Origin: an uncultured Faecalibacterium sp.
GTDB taxonomy: Bacteria; Bacillota; Clostridia; Oscillospirales; Ruminococcaceae
Length of the DNA: 64,000 bases
NCBI GenBank assembly: GCA_904394215.1
Contig: CAJFNF010000001.1
Location: 1 to 64,000, forward strand
Reading direction: 5' to 3'
The first letter of the stretch is position 1. Every line of letters starts with the position of its first letter. Below the pieces are notes generated by a model, which made no database searches, was not told the DNA's origin, and saw only the letters and a program-made list of their open reading frames with translations. Position numbers and translations under genes: made by a program. Positions 293 to 9,673 of the stretch are shown here, one piece after another.

Positions 293-322
293 AACAGCTC
301 TGCATTCAGGACGCAGAGCTGT
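293..322 (-). terminator. Rho-independent terminator of the XRE regulator gene
   Basis: ACAGCTCTGC-N9-GCAGAGCTGT, followed on the minus strand by TTTTTGG. Confidence 0.7.
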
Positions 323-528
323 CATTTTTGATCTGGGATATATACCGCCACATCTTCCAGGCGACACTGTAAAATCTCACAGAGCTTATTCAAGGTGTGG
401 GTAGAGACTGGCATGTCAGCCTGCAAGCGCTGAACGGTAGCATGGCTCATGCCGTATTTGAAGCGGAGGGTATAGGTTGTCATTTGCTTTTCGGCCATTG
501 TTTTCCATAAGGGCGAGTAGCAAATCAT
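322..528 (-). CDS. Small XRE/Cro-type helix-turn-helix regulator
   Basis: 68 aa from ATG at 528 (MICYSPLWKTMAEKQMTTYTLRFKYGMSHATVQRLQADMPVSTHTLNKLCEILQCRLEDVAVYIPDQK); HTH_26-like pattern; GGGGAT RBS. Confidence 0.8.
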   Translation of the reverse strand: MICYSPLWKTMAEKQMTTYTLRFKYGMSHATVQRLQADMPVSTHTLNKLCEILQCRLEDVAVYIPDQK

Positions 529-540
529 AAGATCATCCCC

Positions 541-600
541 TTTACTTTCTCTATTATGGCTGATATAATGGCCATAGAATATGGCTATTATTTGGCCATA
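541..600. promoter_or_regulatory. Divergent promoter region with two tandem operator-like inverted repeats
   Basis: TATGGC-N10-GCCATA (555-576) and TATGGC-N9-GCCATA (580-600); + strand TTTACT-N17-TATAAT (-10 at 564-569) lies inside the first repeat. Confidence 0.65.
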
Positions 601-619
601 CAAAAGGGGAGATTTGGTG

Positions 620-1132
620 ATGGTACGATTGGCCTGTGCATTTACAGGACATAGACCCAGGAAGTTCCCCTGGGGATATAACGAAGAAGACGCCGGATGC
701 AAGCACTTAAAAGCAGCTCTTCAGCAGGAAATAGCCTTGCTGGCCCGAAATGGATACACCGACTTTTTGTCTGGTATGGCAGAAGGTACAGACACTTGGG
801 CTGCCCTAGATGTCCTTGAACTGAGAGAAGCCCATCCTGAACTGAAGCTTCACTGTATTCTGCCTTGCAGAACCCAGGCCGATCAATGGACCTATCCCGC
901 ACAACTTTGTTACCGATCCATTTTGGATCAAGCGGATTCCATCATCTATGTCAGCAGAGACTACAGTAAAAGCTGTATGATGGAGCGCAATCGCTTTCTG
1001 GTGGACCATGCCGGCTTAGTCCTGGCAGTGTACAATGGTGAACCCCGTGGCGGAACTGCTTTCACAGTTCGGTATGCCCAGAGAACTGGAAAGCAAGTCG
1101 TTTTGATTGATCCTGAAATCTACAGGGGATAG
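620..1132 (+). CDS. SLOG-superfamily (DUF1273/YpsA-like) protein
   Basis: MVRLACAFTGHRPRKFPWGYNEE... FLSGMAEGTDTWAA; GHRP and GMA-G-D motifs typical of DUF1273/SLOG; RBS AGGGGAG. Confidence 0.8.
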   Translation: MVRLACAFTGHRPRKFPWGYNEEDAGCKHLKAALQQEIALLARNGYTDFLSGMAEGTDTWAALDVLELREAHPELKLHCILPCRTQADQWTYPAQLCYRSILDQADSIIYVSRDYSKSCMMERNRFLVDHAGLVLAVYNGEPRGGTAFTVRYAQRTGKQVVLIDPEIYRG

Positions 1133-1304: not shown

Positions 1305-3644
1305 ATGACCATGGTTCTTCAGAAAAAAGATATGACCGAAGAAGATATCAAGCTGCAGTACATAACCCCCGCCGTGACTTCCAAGTGGGACCGTCAAAAG
1401 ATTACGATGGAAACCCAGGTCACAGACGGCAAGATTAGCCTAAAGGGGAACCTTGCTGTTCGTGAAAAGGGGAAGCGGGCTGACTATCTGCTCTACCTCA
1501 GCCCCAACAATCCGATTGCTGTAATCGAGGCCAAGGATAACAATCACCAGATATCAGAAGGTCTGCAGCAGGCGATGAACTATGCCAAAATGCTGGACCT
1601 GCCATTTGCTTTCAGCTCCAATGGAGATGGGTTTGCAGAGCATGACTTTCTTACTGGGGCTGAGCGGCAGTTTGGGCTGGACGAATTTCCCACCGAAGCA
1701 GAACTGACGGAGCGCTTCAAAAAGGAATCTGGGCTGACTCCTTTACAGGAAACGGCCATGAACCAGCCCTATTACTCCAGCCAAAATACCTATCCGCCAC
1801 GTTACTACCAGCGCATTGCCATCAACCGAACGGTTGACGCCATCGCCAGGGGACAGAAGCGGCTTCTTTTGGTAATGGCTACCGGTACCGGCAAGACCTA
1901 CACTGCGTTCCAGATTGTCTACCGGCTCTTAAAGAGTGAAACCGTCCACAAAGTTCTCTACCTGGCAGACCGCAATATGCTGGTGGATCAGTCCATTGAG
2001 CAGGACTTTGCCCCGCTGCAGAAAACCATTCACAAAATCAATGTCAAAAACGACAACCCCAATACCATTACATCCTATGAGGTATATTTTTCTCTGTACC
2101 AGCAGCTGGTGGGAGATGATGACAAGGAGCACTTCCGGGAACTGTTCCAGCCGGATTTCTTTGACCTGATTATTGTGGATGAGTGTCACCGGGGATCAGC
2201 CAAGGAGGAAAGCCGCTGGCGGCGGGTTTTGGAGTACTTCTCGAATGCCATTCAAATTGGTATGACTGCCACGCCCAAGGAAACCAAGTACATTTCCAAT
2301 CTGAGCTATTTTGGAGAGCCTGTCTATGCCTATAGCCTGAAGGAAGGCATTGACGATGGCTTCCTTGCCCCCTTCAAGGTCATCAATATCACCACCAATA
2401 TCGGAGAAGGATGGCGTCCCCAAAAGGGCCAGCTGGATATCTATGGCAACGAGATACCAGACCGCATCTATACCAACAGCGACTATGACTACAGCATTAT
2501 TATAAAGGATCGAATCCGGGAAGTGGCCCAGGAGATCACCCGTTACCTCAAGAGTACAGACCGGATGGCCCGAACCATTGTGTTCTGTGCCACGGAGGAC
2601 GCAGCCCTGCGAATGCGGGATATGCTGGCCCAGCTGAATCAGGATATGGTGAAGAAGAACCCTGATTATGTGGTTCGGATCACTGGCAGTGACGAAATCG
2701 GCAAAGGGAAGATCAAGCAGTTTTCTTCGGTGACCCAAAAGTATCCGGTTATCGCTACGACCTCCAAGCTCCTTTCCACTGGGGCTGACTGTAAGATGAC
2801 CAAGCTGATTGTTCTGGATGAAATGATCGGCTCCATGACCGAGTTCAAGCAGATCATCGGACGGGGAACCCGGCTGCGGGAAAAGGATGGCAAGACCCAT
2901 TTTGCGGTGATGGACTTCCGAAATGTCACCCGCCTGTTTGCCGATCCGGATTGGGACGGCCCTCTGGAAATCGACGAGGAGTTTGGCGCGTCCAAAGGTA
3001 AAGAATTGCCCCCGAAAGAACTCCCCGACGGGAACCCTCCGGCTCCTGATTCCCATGGAAAGCTGCCTACGCCGATTGTGGACGAAAAGGGCTGCAAGGT
3101 CCGTATCATTCAGAAAACGGTCTCAATTTATGACACGGATGGCAAGCTTCTGCGCCAGGAAAGCATCGTGGACTACACCAAAGAAAACATTCTGGGCAAA
3201 TATGCTTCTCTGGACAATTTTATCCGGCAGTGGGGCGCCGAAGAGAAAAAGGAAGCCATTCGAGACCTGCTCCGCCAGCGCGGCATTGATCTGGAACAGG
3301 TGAAGGAACAGCAGGGGATGGCCGATGTGGATGACTTTGACTTCATCTGCCATGTGGCCTTTGACAAGAAGCCTCTGACCCGACGGGAGCGGGCCAACAA
3401 TGTCAAGAAGCGGGATTTTCTGAGCAAGTACAGCGGAGCAGCCAGGGAAGTCTTGGAGGCGCTGCTGGACAAATACATGAACACTGGCATCTATGAGATC
3501 GAAAAGACAGAGGTGTTGAAGCTGGACCCGTTTGTCAAAATGGGCAGGCCGGCCAAGATCGCCAGCTATTTTGGCGGGAAAGATGGGTATTTGAAGGCCG
3601 TAAAGGAGCTGGAAAACGAGATCTATACCAGCGAGGTAGTATAA
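1305..3644 (+). CDS. hsdR: Type I restriction endonuclease subunit R (EcoEI-like)
   Basis: N-terminal nuclease domain, Walker A ATGTGKTYTAFQ, DECHRG, GMTATP, GRGTRL motifs; 779 aa. Confidence 0.93.
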   Translation: MTMVLQKKDMTEEDIKLQYITPAVTSKWDRQKITMETQVTDGKISLKGNLAVREKGKRADYLLYLSPNNPIAVIEAKDNNHQISEGLQQAMNYAKMLDLPFAFSSNGDGFAEHDFLTGAERQFGLDEFPTEAELTERFKKESGLTPLQETAMNQPYYSSQNTYPPRYYQRIAINRTVDAIARGQKRLLLVMATGTGKTYTAFQIVYRLLKSETVHKVLYLADRNMLVDQSIEQDFAPLQKTIHKINVKNDNPNTITSYEVYFSLYQQLVGDDDKEHFRELFQPDFFDLIIVDECHRGSAKEESRWRRVLEYFSNAIQIGMTATPKETKYISNLSYFGEPVYAYSLKEGIDDGFLAPFKVINITTNIGEGWRPQKGQLDIYGNEIPDRIYTNSDYDYSIIIKDRIREVAQEITRYLKSTDRMARTIVFCATEDAALRMRDMLAQLNQDMVKKNPDYVVRITGSDEIGKGKIKQFSSVTQKYPVIATTSKLLSTGADCKMTKLIVLDEMIGSMTEFKQIIGRGTRLREKDGKTHFAVMDFRNVTRLFADPDWDGPLEIDEEFGASKGKELPPKELPDGNPPAPDSHGKLPTPIVDEKGCKVRIIQKTVSIYDTDGKLLRQESIVDYTKENILGKYASLDNFIRQWGAEEKKEAIRDLLRQRGIDLEQVKEQQGMADVDDFDFICHVAFDKKPLTRRERANNVKKRDFLSKYSGAAREVLEALLDKYMNTGIYEIEKTEVLKLDPFVKMGRPAKIASYFGGKDGYLKAVKELENEIYTSEVV

Positions 3645-3645
3645 A

Positions 3646-4161
3646 ATGGAAGAATTGACATCATGGCATGTTGGCGTTTCGGCAGAGGCCTTCGCTGCGG
3701 CACAGTTTGCCAGATACGCATTTTATGTTTCCGTTCAATATGGAGCAAATCAGCCTGGGTATGATTTGATTGTGGAATCGGGCGGTAAAACGCTGAAAAT
3801 ATCGGTAAAGGGCAGCCGTGATGGCAGCTGGGGATTGACCCAAGGATACAAAAAAGGCTGCGACTACCATCAGGCCATCCAGGCATGGCAAGAGGCTAAT
3901 GACAAAAAGGGAATCATTTTTTGCCTGGTTCAGTTCCAGGGGACAAATGACAATGAGATGCCCCGGATGTACCTGGCTACCCCTGCTGAGATTGCACAGG
4001 CGATGAATGTTTCCGCCGGAGGGCGCGGAGATACCATCTTGTATGAAAATCATACTTGGGGTCCTCGTGCAGTAGGGAGCGGCACTACAGACAAAGTTCC
4101 TGATACGTGGGAATTTACAAGGCAGCGAGCTGCGGATATGATTAAGAATTACGGGAAGTAA
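3646..4161 (+). CDS. Uncharacterised small protein, possible divergent PD-(D/E)XK fold, inside the hsd operon
   Basis: 171 aa; starts 1 nt after hsdR stop; E-x(n)-GYDLIVE-x(n)-LKISVKGSR pattern resembles a PD-(D/E)XK core. Confidence 0.5.
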   Translation: MEELTSWHVGVSAEAFAAAQFARYAFYVSVQYGANQPGYDLIVESGGKTLKISVKGSRDGSWGLTQGYKKGCDYHQAIQAWQEANDKKGIIFCLVQFQGTNDNEMPRMYLATPAEIAQAMNVSAGGRGDTILYENHTWGPRAVGSGTTDKVPDTWEFTRQRAADMIKNYGK

Positions 4162-4185: not shown

Positions 4186-5661
4186 ATGAGCAATTTATCT
4201 GGATTTGTCAAACGGCTGCGGGATATCATGCGCAACGACGCCGGCATCAACGGCGACGCCCAGCGCATCGAGCAGATCACCTGGCTGCTGTTTTTGAAGG
4301 TATACGCCACCAAAGAGGCGGACTGGGAATGGGAGGATGAAAACTATCAATCTATCATTCCGGAGCCCTGCCGCTGGGAGAACTGGGCAGCCAGAAAAGA
4401 CGGGAAGGAGATGACCGGAGACAAACTCCTGGACTTCGTCAACAATACCTTGTTCCCGACTTTGAAGAATCTTCCGGTGAATGCCGATACCCCCATCCGT
4501 AAGGCCATTGTCCAGACCACCTTTGCTGACGCCAACAACTACATGAAAGACGGCGTCCTGCTGCGGCAGGTCGTCAATACCATCGATGACCTCAAGCTGG
4601 ATGACTATGAGGAAAGCCACGCCTTCGGCGAGATCTACGAAACCATTCTGAAAGAGCTGCAAAGTGCAGGTTCGGCCGGCGAATTCTATACGCCCCGGGC
4701 CGTCACCGACTTTATGGCCCAGATGATCCGTCCCCAGGTGGGGGAGCAGATGGCCGACTTCGCCTGCGGCACTGGCGGCTTTCTGATCAGCTGGCTGAAG
4801 GAGCTGCGCAAGCAGGTCAAGACCACCGAAGACGAGGCAGCCTTCAGCAACTCCATCTATGGCATTGAGAAAAAGCAGTTTCCCTATATGCTCTGCATCA
4901 CCAACCTGCTGCTGCACAATCTGGATAACCCGCGGGTCTATCATGATAACACCCTGCTGCATGACGTGCTGGACTACACCGCCGCCGACAGCTTTGATGT
5001 CATTCTGATGAATCCGCCCTACGGCGGCAGCGAGAAAGCCGACGTGAAAAACCATTTCCCGTCCGATTTGGCCAGCAGCGAAACCGCTGACCTGTTCATG
5101 TCGGTCATTATGTACCGGCTCAAGCCCGGCGGGCGGGCCGCGGTAATTCTGCCCGATGGCTTTTTGTTCGGCACCGACAACGCCAAACTGAACATCAAAA
5201 AGAAGCTTCTCAGTGAATTCAACCTCCACACCATCGTTCGGATGCCGGGCAGCGTCTTTTCGCCCTATACCTCCATCACCACCAACATTCTTTTCTTTGA
5301 TAACACCGGCCCCACCCAGTCCACCTGGTTCTATCGGCTGGATATGCCGGAAGGCTATAAGCATTTCAGCAAGACCAAGCCCATGAAGCTGGAGCACTTT
5401 GACCCCGTGGTGGAGTGGTGGGACAACCGTCAGGAGCTGACGGTGGACGGCTTCGACAAGGCCAAACAGTTCACGGCCCAGCAGCTGGCGGAAGATCTGG
5501 GCTACAACTTGGATCAGTGCGGCTACCCCCATGAGGAAGAAGAAATCCTGGCCCCGCTGGACCTGATTCACCGCTATGAGGAGCAGCGGGCATCGCTGAA
5601 CGCCGAGATTGACCGCGTTCTGGCTGAGATCGCCGCCAAACTGGGAGGAAACGCCGAATGA
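4186..5661 (+). CDS. hsdM: Type I restriction-modification N6-adenine methyltransferase subunit M
   Basis: AGEFYTPR, FACGTGGFL, NPPYGG motifs; 491 aa. Confidence 0.95.
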   Translation: MSNLSGFVKRLRDIMRNDAGINGDAQRIEQITWLLFLKVYATKEADWEWEDENYQSIIPEPCRWENWAARKDGKEMTGDKLLDFVNNTLFPTLKNLPVNADTPIRKAIVQTTFADANNYMKDGVLLRQVVNTIDDLKLDDYEESHAFGEIYETILKELQSAGSAGEFYTPRAVTDFMAQMIRPQVGEQMADFACGTGGFLISWLKELRKQVKTTEDEAAFSNSIYGIEKKQFPYMLCITNLLLHNLDNPRVYHDNTLLHDVLDYTAADSFDVILMNPPYGGSEKADVKNHFPSDLASSETADLFMSVIMYRLKPGGRAAVILPDGFLFGTDNAKLNIKKKLLSEFNLHTIVRMPGSVFSPYTSITTNILFFDNTGPTQSTWFYRLDMPEGYKHFSKTKPMKLEHFDPVVEWWDNRQELTVDGFDKAKQFTAQQLAEDLGYNLDQCGYPHEEEEILAPLDLIHRYEEQRASLNAEIDRVLAEIAAKLGGNAE

Positions 5662-7115
5662 CCCCGCAGGAACTCAAAAACAGCATTTTGCAGCTTGCCA
5701 TTCAAGGCAAACTGGTAGAGCAGCGCCCGGAGGAGGGGACTGCCCAGGAGCTTTATGCCCAGATCCAGGCCGAGAAACAGCGCCTCATCAAAGAAGGTAA
5801 ATTTAAAAATAAGAAAAAAATAGAACCTATTACAGATGAAGTGATACCATTTGATATTCCGGATTCATGGCTATGGGTAAGATTCGGCAATTTGGTCAAC
5901 TACTCTATGGGAAAAACACCTCCGCGGGCAGAACAGGAATGGTGGGGAAACGATATCCCATGGGTATCTATTGCTGATATGCCAGAAAGTGGGCATATTG
6001 GTAAAACAAAAGAATGTGTAAGTTTAGCTGCAATTACACATAAATTTGGAGGAAAAATTTCTCGAGCAGGGACCCTGCTAATGAGCTTTAAGTTGACCGT
6101 TGGTCGAGTATCTATTCTCGATATTGATGCTGTTCATAATGAAGCGATTATATCAATATATCCTTTTGCCGATGATTACGGAATAGAAAAAGAGTATTTA
6201 TTTTATGTGTTGCCCATTATTTCTCAATTGGGAGAAAGCAAAAATGCAATAAAAGGAAAAACTCTAAACGATACTAGCATTTGTAATCTCCTTGTCCCGC
6301 TCCCTCCCCTTGCTGAACAAAAACGTATTGTTGCTAAAATCGAAGAACTCCTGCCCCTAGTGGACCGCTATGAACAGGCGTGGACTAAGCTGGAAGACTT
6401 CAACCGCCGTTTCCCCGAAGATATGAAGAAGTCCATCCTCCAGCAAGCCATCCAGGGCAAGCTGGTGGAGCAGCGCCCGGAAGAAGGCACCGCCCAAGAA
6501 CTTTATGCCCAGATTCAGGCCGAAAAACAGCGCCTCATCAAAGCAGGCAAGCTCAAAAAAGAAAAGCCCCTGCCCGAAATTACCGAGGATGAGAAGCCCT
6601 TTGAGATTCCCGAGGGATGGATATGGGCTAGATTAGGTAATCTTGGAATTACACAAACCGGAAATACACCTTCAAAGGCTCATGCTGAGTATCAAGGAAA
6701 CGATATTCCTTTTATCACTCCAGGAGACATATTTAATGGGAAAATCGATTATCACAATCAGTCATTATCAGTTGCTGGTATGAAAATAGCGAGAACTTGT
6801 GAGGCTGAATCGATCTTACAAGTTTGCATAGGTGGATCTATTGGTAAGGCTGCCATTGTAAAACAAAGAATTAGCTTTAACCAGCAAATCAACTCGATTA
6901 CTCCTATGGTCTGTGAGAGTGCATACATCTATAATGTCCTTTGCTCTCACTATTTCATTAACTTAATGAAAGAAAAATCGGGAGGTACTGCAACGCCTAT
7001 CATTAATCGTGGTTTATGGAATTCACTACTTGTTCCTCTCCCGCCTCTTGCTGAACAAAAGCGCATTGTTGAAAGGCTGAAGGAACTGCTGCCGCTGTGT
7101 GAAAGATTGAAGTGA
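5658..7115 (+). CDS. hsdS: Type I specificity subunit S with two target-recognition domains
   Basis: ATGA overlap with hsdM; two TRD halves each ending LLVPLPPLAEQKRIV; internal repeat of AIQGKLVEQRPEEGTAQELYAQIQAEKQRLIK. Confidence 0.95.
   Translation: MTPQELKNSILQLAIQGKLVEQRPEEGTAQELYAQIQAEKQRLIKEGKFKNKKKIEPITDEVIPFDIPDSWLWVRFGNLVNYSMGKTPPRAEQEWWGNDIPWVSIADMPESGHIGKTKECVSLAAITHKFGGKISRAGTLLMSFKLTVGRVSILDIDAVHNEAIISIYPFADDYGIEKEYLFYVLPIISQLGESKNAIKGKTLNDTSICNLLVPLPPLAEQKRIVAKIEELLPLVDRYEQAWTKLEDFNRRFPEDMKKSILQQAIQGKLVEQRPEEGTAQELYAQIQAEKQRLIKAGKLKKEKPLPEITEDEKPFEIPEGWIWARLGNLGITQTGNTPSKAHAEYQGNDIPFITPGDIFNGKIDYHNQSLSVAGMKIARTCEAESILQVCIGGSIGKAAIVKQRISFNQQINSITPMVCESAYIYNVLCSHYFINLMKEKSGGTATPIINRGLWNSLLVPLPPLAEQKRIVERLKELLPLCERLK
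5697..5792 (+). repeat. HsdS internal direct repeat, copy 1
   Basis: Encodes AIQGKLVEQRPEEGTAQELYAQIQAEKQRLIK. Confidence 0.85.
6447..6542 (+). repeat. HsdS internal direct repeat, copy 2
   Basis: Encodes the identical 32-aa peptide; shares nt runs such as aaacagcgcctcatcaaag with copy 1. Confidence 0.85.
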
Positions 7116-7121
7116 GGTGAA

Positions 7122-7961
7122 GTGTTAGTGAAGGAATATTTTTTTAAACACAAATTAAAGATTGCGGTGGGCTTTCTTATTTTTGTTGTTGCAATACCGA
7201 TTATCATAAATTGCCTTTTTAAGTTTAGTTTGCCTTGTGAATTGTTTGCAGCTGAGTGGGAAGCAGGCGATGCCTTGGATTTTTATGCGACAATGTTGGG
7301 ATCTGCTGCTACAATAGTAGGTGTATATTTGTCGATAGATGCTGCACAAAAAAGTTATCATGAGGATGAAATCAATAAAGTTAAGCCTTATTTTGCGCTG
7401 ACTCATTATAAATCTAAATCACGAATTAATTTCTTCAATGGAACAAATGAAGACCAGCAAAAAAGAGAAAAACACAGTTATTATAAAGAATATAAACTTA
7501 CAAAAATATACATTGTTGTAAGCTCGAAGACAATTGAGTTTCGAGATCAATTAGATAAAAGCCAAGAGGATCTACTGCAATCTTCAGGACTTGGATGGGA
7601 AATAACAGGATCGAAAGCGTCATTAAAGTCATACAGATTAATATCTATGCCTTTTGATATTGAAAATGTTGGAAATGGGGCAGCTTTAAATACTTATATT
7701 TGTTTTTCTAAAAAAGGAAACAAATTCCGTGGTATGAATGTTTTTACCCTCAAAGTAGGACAATCTTTTTATTGCCATATTTTTTCTAGTGAGCAGAATG
7801 ATTCTATTTTGGGTGAATATGTTTTAAAATTAGCTTATGAAGATATTCTTGGTAATAAATATTCTCAAGAATACAATATAGAAATCAAAACCGATGAAAA
7901 CAAAGGTAGTATTAAAGAGCTGATAGATTTAACTGGAAAACAGGAAAAAATTCCCAAATAA
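7122..7961 (+). CDS. Uncharacterised membrane protein at the end of the hsd operon
   Basis: GTG start 6 nt after the hsdS stop with GAGGTGA RBS; N-terminal TM (IAVGFLIFVVAIPIIINCLF) and second hydrophobic segment (FYATMLGSAATIVGVYLSI); AT-rich gene. Confidence 0.7.
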   Translation: MLVKEYFFKHKLKIAVGFLIFVVAIPIIINCLFKFSLPCELFAAEWEAGDALDFYATMLGSAATIVGVYLSIDAAQKSYHEDEINKVKPYFALTHYKSKSRINFFNGTNEDQQKREKHSYYKEYKLTKIYIVVSSKTIEFRDQLDKSQEDLLQSSGLGWEITGSKASLKSYRLISMPFDIENVGNGAALNTYICFSKKGNKFRGMNVFTLKVGQSFYCHIFSSEQNDSILGEYVLKLAYEDILGNKYSQEYNIEIKTDENKGSIKELIDLTGKQEKIPK

Positions 7962-8012
7962 AAGACCGCACACTCTCCAAAATTACTCTGGTGGGTGTGC
8001 GGTTCTTTCATT
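7961..8012. terminator. Bidirectional terminator between convergent genes
   Basis: AAAGACCGCACACTCTCC ... GTGGGTGTGCGGTTCTTT imperfect stem. Confidence 0.65.
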
Positions 8013-8029: not shown

Positions 8030-9673
8030 TCAGATCATCTGAAAGTGCTTCAGAGCCTCCCGAATAGCCTTCTCCTTTTCCGGCGGGCACTGGGGCTGCT
8101 TGGAATTCTCCGACTTGGGCTTGTTGTAGCACTCCCGCTCGATGATCCCGCATTTTTGCTTGACCTGAGCGATGTAGAGGGGAGTGACGTTCAGGCCGGT
8201 CTGCTTCTTGACGTAGTCTTTGATCTCCTGATAGGTGGCTTTGCTCTCCGCAGCAGTCAAATCCAGCTCGTCCATCTTGAGCTCAATCTCGATGTGATGC
8301 TTGGAATGAAGTTTGGACAACAAGATCACGCACTCGACGTGCCCCGTCCGAGGGAACATATCCACCGGCTGGACCTTGTCTACGCTGTACCCCGACTGCG
8401 CAAGAATAGCGCAGTCGCGGGCTGCTGTGGCAGGGTTGCAGCTCACATAAACCAGACGGCGGGGCGCCATTTTTATAATGGCAGACAGCGTTGCCTGATC
8501 GCAGCCCTTCCGGGGAGGATCCACCACAATGATGTCCGGAGCCAAGCCTTCAGAAGCCAGGCGGCTGGCAGCTTGTCCGGCATCCGCACAGAAAAAGCGA
8601 CTCTTGGCTGCAACATCCGCTCCCATGCGGGAAGCATTGGCCTTGGCGCTTTCAATGGCTTCCGGGATGATTTCAACGCCAATCAACTCCCGGCAGTGCT
8701 GCACCATGGACAGGCCGATGGTGCCCATGCCGCAGTAAAGATCCAGCAGCAAATCGTCAGGGGTAGGCGCAGCATACGCCGCAGCAACCTTGTAGAGCTG
8801 CTCGGCGCCAGGTGTGTTCACCTGATAGAAGGAGAGGGGGCCCAGCTGGACCGGCACATCACAAAGCGTGTCCTCAATGAATCCGGATCCGTAGAGAATC
8901 TGGTTTTTCAAGCCGAGGATGACATTGGTCTTTTCTCGATTGACGTTGATCAGGATGGTTCTGATGGCGTCAAAGCGGCTGCATAGCTGCCGGATGATTT
9001 CGTCTGCATGGGGGAGACTGGGTCGTGTGCATACAAGGCAAACCATAATCTGTCCGCTGTGTGCACCGCGGCGCAGGAATATATGCCGGACCAGTCCTTT
9101 TCCGCTTTGTTCATCGTAAGGCTGAATCCCGTATTGTTCCAGCAGGCCGCACAGGGTGTTGCCGATTTCATTGAGGACAGCGGGCTGGAGCTTGCAGTCA
9201 GCACAGGGAATGATCCGGTGGCTGCGGCCAGCATAGAAGCCAATGCACAGATGCCCGTTTTTGTCTTTCCCTACAGGATACTGTACCTTGTTGCGGTAGC
9301 GGTCTACTTCGGGAGAGGGGAGAATGGGTTGGATGGGAACATCCAGCCCGCCAATCCGTCGGAAGGCATCTGCCACAGAGTCCTCTTTGGCCTGCAGCTC
9401 CGCCTGATAGCGGAGATGGCGGAGGCTGCAGCCGCCGCAGGGGCCAGCAACCGGGCAGTCCACCGGAATCCGGTCAGGGGAAGCGGTTTCCAGGGTATCC
9501 ACAATCCCAAAAGCATACCGCTTGCAATCCTTGACAATTCTGGCCTGGATCTGGTCTCCGGGTGCCGTGCCAGGCACAAAGACTGCTTCTCCCTCCCAGT
9601 GGCCCACGCCGCTGCCGTCACCGGACAGCCGCTGAATGGTCAGGGAGATGATCTGGTTTTTCTGTAAAGGCAT
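8030..9673 (-). CDS. rlmD: 23S rRNA (uracil-5-)-methyltransferase RlmD/RumA with ~93-aa C-terminal extension
   Basis: TRAM N-terminus, CGGCSLRHL cluster, DLYCGMGTIGLS, VVDPPRKG, YVSCNP; extra tail LDLTAAESKATYQEIKDYV...YIAQVKQKCGIIERECYNKPKSENSKQPQCPPEKEKAIREALKHFQMI. Confidence 0.9.
   Translation of the reverse strand: MPLQKNQIISLTIQRLSGDGSGVGHWEGEAVFVPGTAPGDQIQARIVKDCKRYAFGIVDTLETASPDRIPVDCPVAGPCGGCSLRHLRYQAELQAKEDSVADAFRRIGGLDVPIQPILPSPEVDRYRNKVQYPVGKDKNGHLCIGFYAGRSHRIIPCADCKLQPAVLNEIGNTLCGLLEQYGIQPYDEQSGKGLVRHIFLRRGAHSGQIMVCLVCTRPSLPHADEIIRQLCSRFDAIRTILINVNREKTNVILGLKNQILYGSGFIEDTLCDVPVQLGPLSFYQVNTPGAEQLYKVAAAYAAPTPDDLLLDLYCGMGTIGLSMVQHCRELIGVEIIPEAIESAKANASRMGADVAAKSRFFCADAGQAASRLASEGLAPDIIVVDPPRKGCDQATLSAIIKMAPRRLVYVSCNPATAARDCAILAQSGYSVDKVQPVDMFPRTGHVECVILLSKLHSKHHIEIELKMDELDLTAAESKATYQEIKDYVKKQTGLNVTPLYIAQVKQKCGIIERECYNKPKSENSKQPQCPPEKEKAIREALKHFQMI
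8321..8341 (-). other. Attachment-site-like sequence in rlmD (CACGTCGAGTGCGTGATCTTG)
   Basis: Encodes HVECVIL just before the atypical C-terminal extension; resembles the rum-gene attachment sequence recalled for streptococcal integrative elements. Confidence 0.4.

Follow-up and report, generated by a model that had tools for sequence, protein, structure and literature searches.

The RlmD protein of an uncultured Faecalibacterium sp. carries a C-terminal tail of about 100 residues, and we consider it probable, at roughly 87%, that this tail was brought by an integrative mobilizable element (IME) with a large serine integrase inserting in the 3' end of rlmD (rumA), and that the island next to the gene is the element's cargo. 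The gene lies at 8030-9673 on the minus strand of the window, by which we mean the whole stretch of 64,000 nucleotides analysed here. In the mechanism that we propose, a crossover within the HVE codons would have swapped two 3' ends, passing the tail of the element to rlmD and the old rlmD end to the integrase gene, which stands on the opposite side of the element. An earlier note, made from the letters of the window alone, had suggested that an element integrated here and restored the reading frame with its own tail; such an arrangement can be seen directly in four genomes of the same genus (G013, G002, G005 and G029), and we infer that the window element is of the same build. The available evidence supports placing the window locus among the rumA/rlmD-targeting serine-integrase elements.

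The extended RlmD protein and its junction

The rlmD open reading frame encodes 547 amino acids and reads ...FPRTGHVECVILLSKLHSKHHIEIELKMDELDLTAAESKATYQEI...ALKHFQMI. Its match to TIGR00479, the family model for the 23S rRNA m5U1939 methyltransferase RlmD, is full-length and above the cut-off (410 bits against 183.6; E=9e-123), spanning residues 18-447 with the final model position falling on E447 in the profile search, while the approximately 100 amino acids past E447 have no match in Pfam or NCBIfam. The C-terminal extension pointed out in the earlier note therefore exists, and its boundary with the curated family is exact. Chance read-through is excluded as its source, because the tail recurs in at least 571 other Firmicutes loci and is under purifying selection. 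Residues 1-444 (8342-9673, minus strand), with the TRAM, FeS and methyltransferase domains of a core that the family model extends to E447, are the vertically inherited part of the protein, and the synteny with AraC and galK is conserved within the genus.

The end of the core was expected near HVECVILL with foreign sequence beyond. The curated family does stop at E447, but the last methyltransferase beta-strand of an AlphaFold model of the full-length protein (mean pLDDT 89.7) comprises residues 447-454. The real end of the RlmD core is thus predicted at about residue 454 and not at HVE, with seven strand residues contributed from the element side. These residues are encoded by codons 448-454 (8312-8332, minus strand), which in the model complete the strand at a pLDDT of about 95, and V...LLSK is conserved among the tails. 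Because the cut falls in this last strand, an element would have to supply a substitute (xVxxLSK) for RlmD to work; besides the strand, it would bring a linker and three helices that form a domain of their own. The tailed RlmD presumably retains its function.

The junction itself, an attL-like sequence CACGTCGAGTGCGTG encoding HVECV (8327-8341, minus strand), is where the relatives part company, diverging after CAYGTNGA. It agrees with 13 of the 14 bases of CACGTGGAGTGCGT, which together with CACGTTGAAGTTGT is given as the att sequence of rum-site ICEs in Streptococcus suis (PMC9815147); the integration sequence of streptococcal ICEs that the earlier note named is therefore a real one and reported as att. 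Such similarity alone proves nothing, since the att site is part of the rlmD gene, whose HVE motif is conserved; the match shows no more than the presence of the customary target. Among the relatives, the sequence changes abruptly at CAYGTNGAR (HVE), which places the insertion point within the 3' part of rumA/rlmD. DNA alignments between the window and tail-less relatives stop between 8288 and 8334, and in attL/attR pairs the only invariant positions are GA and a GT 6 bp on. The most probable crossover point is the dinucleotide GA within the Glu codon (8334-8335).

Element ends in related genomes and the island of the window

Comparison of rlmD ends across 61 related genomes revealed an rlmD with tail, of about 547-549 amino acids, in nine other genomes of the same genus, most others being short (about 455-463 amino acids). 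All share the rlmD core and differ in their ends: identity breaks right after HVE, and at least three types of tail and several short ends follow. The comparison with island-free relatives proposed earlier yields the same picture, in that tail-less genomes have short rlmD ends, with a native end in G026 and G011. Against the possibility, likewise raised earlier, that the same tail might occur without a neighbouring insertion, accessory DNA lies directly behind all same-genus rlmD tails examined.

Both ends of such elements are visible in G013, G002, G005 and G029, where one end consists of rlmD joined to the tail and the other of a large serine integrase joined to a displaced rlmD end; in all four the 3' end of the integrase gene crosses the CAYGTNGAR site. 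The G029 integrase ends with STVECVLLMSKAQ before its stop, and its 3' end and flank match the 3' ends of tail-less rlmD genes, with 91% identity over 258 bp in G026 and 93% over 101 bp in G011, so that this integrase now bears the 3' end that is native to rlmD in these tail-less relatives, together with the 3' flanking sequence. The integrases of G005 and G013 end with SHTECVIALSKGTGTASI and MHETVIQLSKGSFTPKTVHM, respectively, each followed by a stop. G002 encodes, 10 kb behind its rlmD, a large serine recombinase to which a second, displaced tail is joined in frame (L044), and in G022 and G020 displaced tails are found 43-47 kb behind rlmD with a type I system after each; the gene past the island in G022 is, by eye, closely homologous to the one that immediately follows rlmD in G026. 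These end arrangements are the hallmark of insertions made one after another by an integrase that exchanges 3' ends.

A complete example is an element of about 24 kb in G013, one of the two relatives whose RlmD is closest to that of the window (86%). From rlmD and its tail to the integrase and displaced end, with genes confirmed by Pfam, it encodes in this order HsdM, HsdS, HsdR, GmrSD, XRE, YpsA, CHC2 and D5-like primases, insertion sequences, a Mob_Pre relaxase and the large serine integrase. A Mob_Pre relaxase is also present within the G002 element.

The rlmD gene of G012 ends with CVILLSKLHAAQHSEA and a stop (L013/L045); from CACGTC on, 36 bp agree fully with the window, and another short end follows. 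It looks like a truncated tail scar, with no element-like genes behind it. On contig C12 of G006 (L046), four consecutive large serine recombinase genes lie approximately 8 kb behind the rlmD tail.

That the junction in the window is a chimera of two organisms, produced by assembly or binning, has next to no chance of being right. The contig does end in a repeat, the assembly consists of 88 contigs, and the origin of the tail is foreign, but the succession of rlmD core, tail and restriction cargo also occurs in the finished single-contig genomes G005 and G029, which excludes this explanation, and in many independent assemblies; moreover, the join lies within one open reading frame.

Behind the rlmD tail of the window, the island contains a complete type I restriction-modification system by Pfam and PADLOC: HsdR (1305-3644, plus strand; PF04851, PF08463; PADLOC REase_I), HsdM (4186-5661, plus strand; PF02384, PF12161) and the specificity subunit HsdS (5658-7115, plus strand; PF01420; PADLOC Specificity_I). 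A 171-amino-acid PD-(D/E)XK-like protein is encoded between hsdR and hsdM (3646-4161, plus strand; PF11645 below the cut-off). The final cargo gene (7122-7961, plus strand) encodes a 279-amino-acid protein with N-terminal segments that look hydrophobic and membrane-like by eye; it has no Pfam or PADLOC match and only a sub-threshold NCBIfam match. Between this gene and the convergent rlmD tail, an inverted repeat read directly from the sequence (GACCGCACAC...GTGTGCGGTT, with A/T runs) likely forms a bidirectional terminator at 7962-8012. At the other side of the restriction genes are a YpsA/SLOG-family gene (581-1132, plus strand; PF06908), similarly placed to a YpsA-family gene in the G013 element, and a small VanU-like regulator gene (matched region 322-525, minus strand; NF000090 below the cut-off). 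The type I system, the YpsA-like gene and the small regulator would be the cargo of the inserted element, whose primase, relaxase, integrase and attR would lie past the IS630-like contig end or have been lost.

The suggestion that the adjacent 8-kb island is element cargo is supported by its position and kind, which match the elements of the relatives, and by its hsdM being nearer to G003 than the host gene is, with a DNA identity between the window and G003 of 92.9% for hsdM against 78% for the rlmD region. Within the genus, a restriction system stands directly behind nine of ten rlmD tails, G002 being the exception: type I in seven (partly cut by the contig end in G001 and G003), type III in G005 and, judging from PADLOC matches and by eye, an McrBC-like system in G023. 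In a survey of 23 loci beyond the genus, the longest genes behind the tail belong most often to restriction families, yet in few loci only, so this cargo is typical of the genus and not general; the families shown for the upstream controls of this survey were UvrD-type helicase models. At another locus of G013, near a likely tyrosine integrase (G013:C11:4642-13615, L179; by eye), the hsdS-hsdM-PD-(D/E)XK-hsdR order of the window recurs, and the cargo can therefore move on its own and between element types.

It is improbable, if still worth weighing, that the tail is a scar of an earlier element since lost or decayed and that the present type I island came otherwise, by its own mobility or by homologous recombination. 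Neither integrase nor attR is visible for the window, the tails are mosaic (window and G014 share 28% identity in the N-part and 95% in the C-part), the restriction module occurs at other places, an IS stands at the island edge, and G012 offers a truncated tail start with no element-like genes behind. Set against this are the restriction cargo directly behind nine of ten tails in the genus, the order of tail, restriction genes and XRE/YpsA that is repeated in the complete G013 element, and the fact that the window contig simply stops after 8 kb.

The window opens with the first base of a contig of 96,868 bp in an assembly of 88 contigs that is 93% complete. Bases 1-99 are the end of an IS630-like element (typed by eye); an identical 99-mer opens contig C57, and in G021 the matching sequence closes an intact pair of transposase genes (two ORFs) within an intact IS. 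The contig break is explained by this repeat. No second tail, junction or displaced rlmD 3' end was found in the window's 93%-complete assembly, where the contig ends before the far side of the element. Near-junction matches in this genome amount to three with 3 mismatches, two of which were read and are unrelated sequence. In the ends that were read, a rum-type integrase is not among the four serine recombinases of this genome, the window contig stopping before such a gene would be reached; a D5-like primase was not found there in a search that had no positive control in this genome, and the right flanks of G013 (kdp-like genes) and G012 gave no useful match. The same genome does contain a frameshifted Mob_Pre gene at a contig end (G000:C12:194-1194, L183), 85-90% identical to that of the G013 element and unlinked to the window. 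It was rejected as part of the missing half, and probably belongs to another, decayed element, because chromosomal-looking PTS/beta-glucosidase genes follow.

A mobile and selected tail domain

The first element residues mend the methyltransferase fold, and the remainder of the tail is a separate domain. First comes a flexible linker (residues 457-477; 8243-8305, minus strand; pLDDT below 50), a module that varies within the genus, where it has three types or more, and the N-part of the tail ranges from 21 to 93% identity between relatives. A three-helix C-terminal domain follows (residues 481-547 and the stop; 8030-8233, minus strand), with AlphaFold helices at 481-492, 498-507 and 531-543. 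Tail residues 36-99 are homologous to phrog_27283 (E=5.6e-8), a family of 69-amino-acid phage proteins; its members are small stand-alone proteins, whereas the tail is fused to RlmD. The structure search gave no significant match to the tail fold among PDB or viral models. A LacI-type helix-turn-helix was considered and rejected: the best Foldseek matches, to CcpA, reached E=3.5 and TM 0.38, and there was no PDB sequence match. A stand-alone relative of the helical domain, also 69 amino acids long, is encoded on plasmid CP017949.1 (34301-34510; L148:2998-3207) near a DNA methylase and a SAM synthetase (methionine adenosyltransferase), and weak relatives occur in Synechococcus phages as well. 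The median dN/dS of the tail is about 0.18 over 35 usable pairs, which represents purifying selection and marks the tail as a working part of a protein.

The tail-encoding loci in public genomes, at least 571 in number, belong to Lachnospiraceae, Oscillospiraceae and others. Of 82 tail open reading frames whose heads were examined, 59 have an RlmD-type head, 2 are in-frame fusions to a serine integrase and 21 are headless. Among 49 tailed RlmDs, mean pairwise identity is 73.9% for the tail and 43.6% for the core, the tail exceeding the core in 95% of pairs, and the two identities are not positively correlated (r = -0.15). These figures bear directly on the idea that the tail is a native C-terminal domain, inherited vertically with RlmD, and that the gene is complete as it stands, the island having inserted downstream of it independently. 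Although the tail is in frame, conserved, under purifying selection and common in the genus, its similarities run independently of those of the core over the 49 proteins, close relatives are without it, the same tail is found on serine integrases or headless at displaced ends, and its C-part has a higher third-position identity than the core. The incongruence of tail and core refutes this idea as the main explanation, and we regard it as very improbable.

The history of the locus is also more complex than a single insertion, as mosaic tails and successive insertions in several genomes indicate. In the clade of the window, the tail consists of a variable N-part of 33 amino acids and a C-part that is 91-95% identical. 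Three unlike N-parts are observed on a near-identical C-part in the window (8243-8341), G013, G014, G003 and G001. Identity at third codon positions between the window and G013 is 87% in the tail C-part and 56% in the core, from which it follows that the C-part is younger than the core; together with the mosaic structure, this means that tails recombine among themselves within the clade. One explanation, which we infer, is homologous recombination between tandem tails. In addition, three finished genomes encode elsewhere a second RlmD-like methyltransferase of 480 amino acids (46-48% identity) that is also tail-ended (G009:C1:2104955-2106382, G030:C1:594805-596232 and G029:C1:2388057-2389484), possibly a second gene targeted by such elements or a copy that an element carries.

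Selection strongly maintains a domain of about 100 amino acids, although some eight residues suffice to close the methyltransferase fold, and the reason for this is a testable question. In an excised circle with an integrase of the G002, G013 or G029 type, reading across the joint would put the tail at the C-terminus of the integrase. On a tentative and rather speculative reading, the three-helix domain might be a dedicated, selected part of the element that swaps partners with the state of the element, sitting at the integrase C-terminus while the element is an excised circle and at the RlmD C-terminus once it is inserted; in this way it could turn off the integrase and confer on the modified RlmD a new binding property, to the benefit of the element.

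Relation to known rumA elements

The element origin of the tail explains an unannotated extra domain of RlmD in hundreds of gut Firmicutes as mobile-element DNA. The tail flags a hot spot of insertion, which within this genus is occupied mostly by restriction systems. Such elements can therefore be located and delimited quickly by way of RlmD tails, which for the same reason are unfit for RlmD phylogeny.

In streptococci, a single serine integrase and reciprocal 3' exchange between rumA and the integrase gene have been described for rumA elements (Ambroset et al. 2016, PMC4701971), and IME_SpnAP200_rumA is a rumA-inserted IME (PMC5357655). The elements described here resemble the streptococcal rumA ICEs and IMEs in their target gene and site (CACGTGGAGTGCGT versus CACGTCGAGTGCGT), in the position of attR within the serine integrase gene itself and in the reciprocal swap of 3' ends between rumA and the integrase gene. 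Unlike the streptococcal exchange, which shifts the frame of both proteins (PMC4701971), the exchange here keeps the frame and passes on a conserved tail of about 100 amino acids, and the cargo consists mostly of restriction systems rather than antibiotic resistance. The record of the S. suis rum-site prophage YS162 (OP662530) opens with a rum gene, annotated as a SAM-dependent methyltransferase, that ends in the same kind of tail at 50% identity; YS162 is a phage carrying mef(A), whereas the elements here are mobilizable. CTn5 of Clostridioides difficile, of the Tn1549 family and cited in PMC4701971, is also a serine-integrase element inserted in rumA, but a larger conjugative one than those here. 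With respect to the literature searched, the mode of insertion is itself known from streptococci, and the novel part is the conserved, mobile three-helix tail domain.
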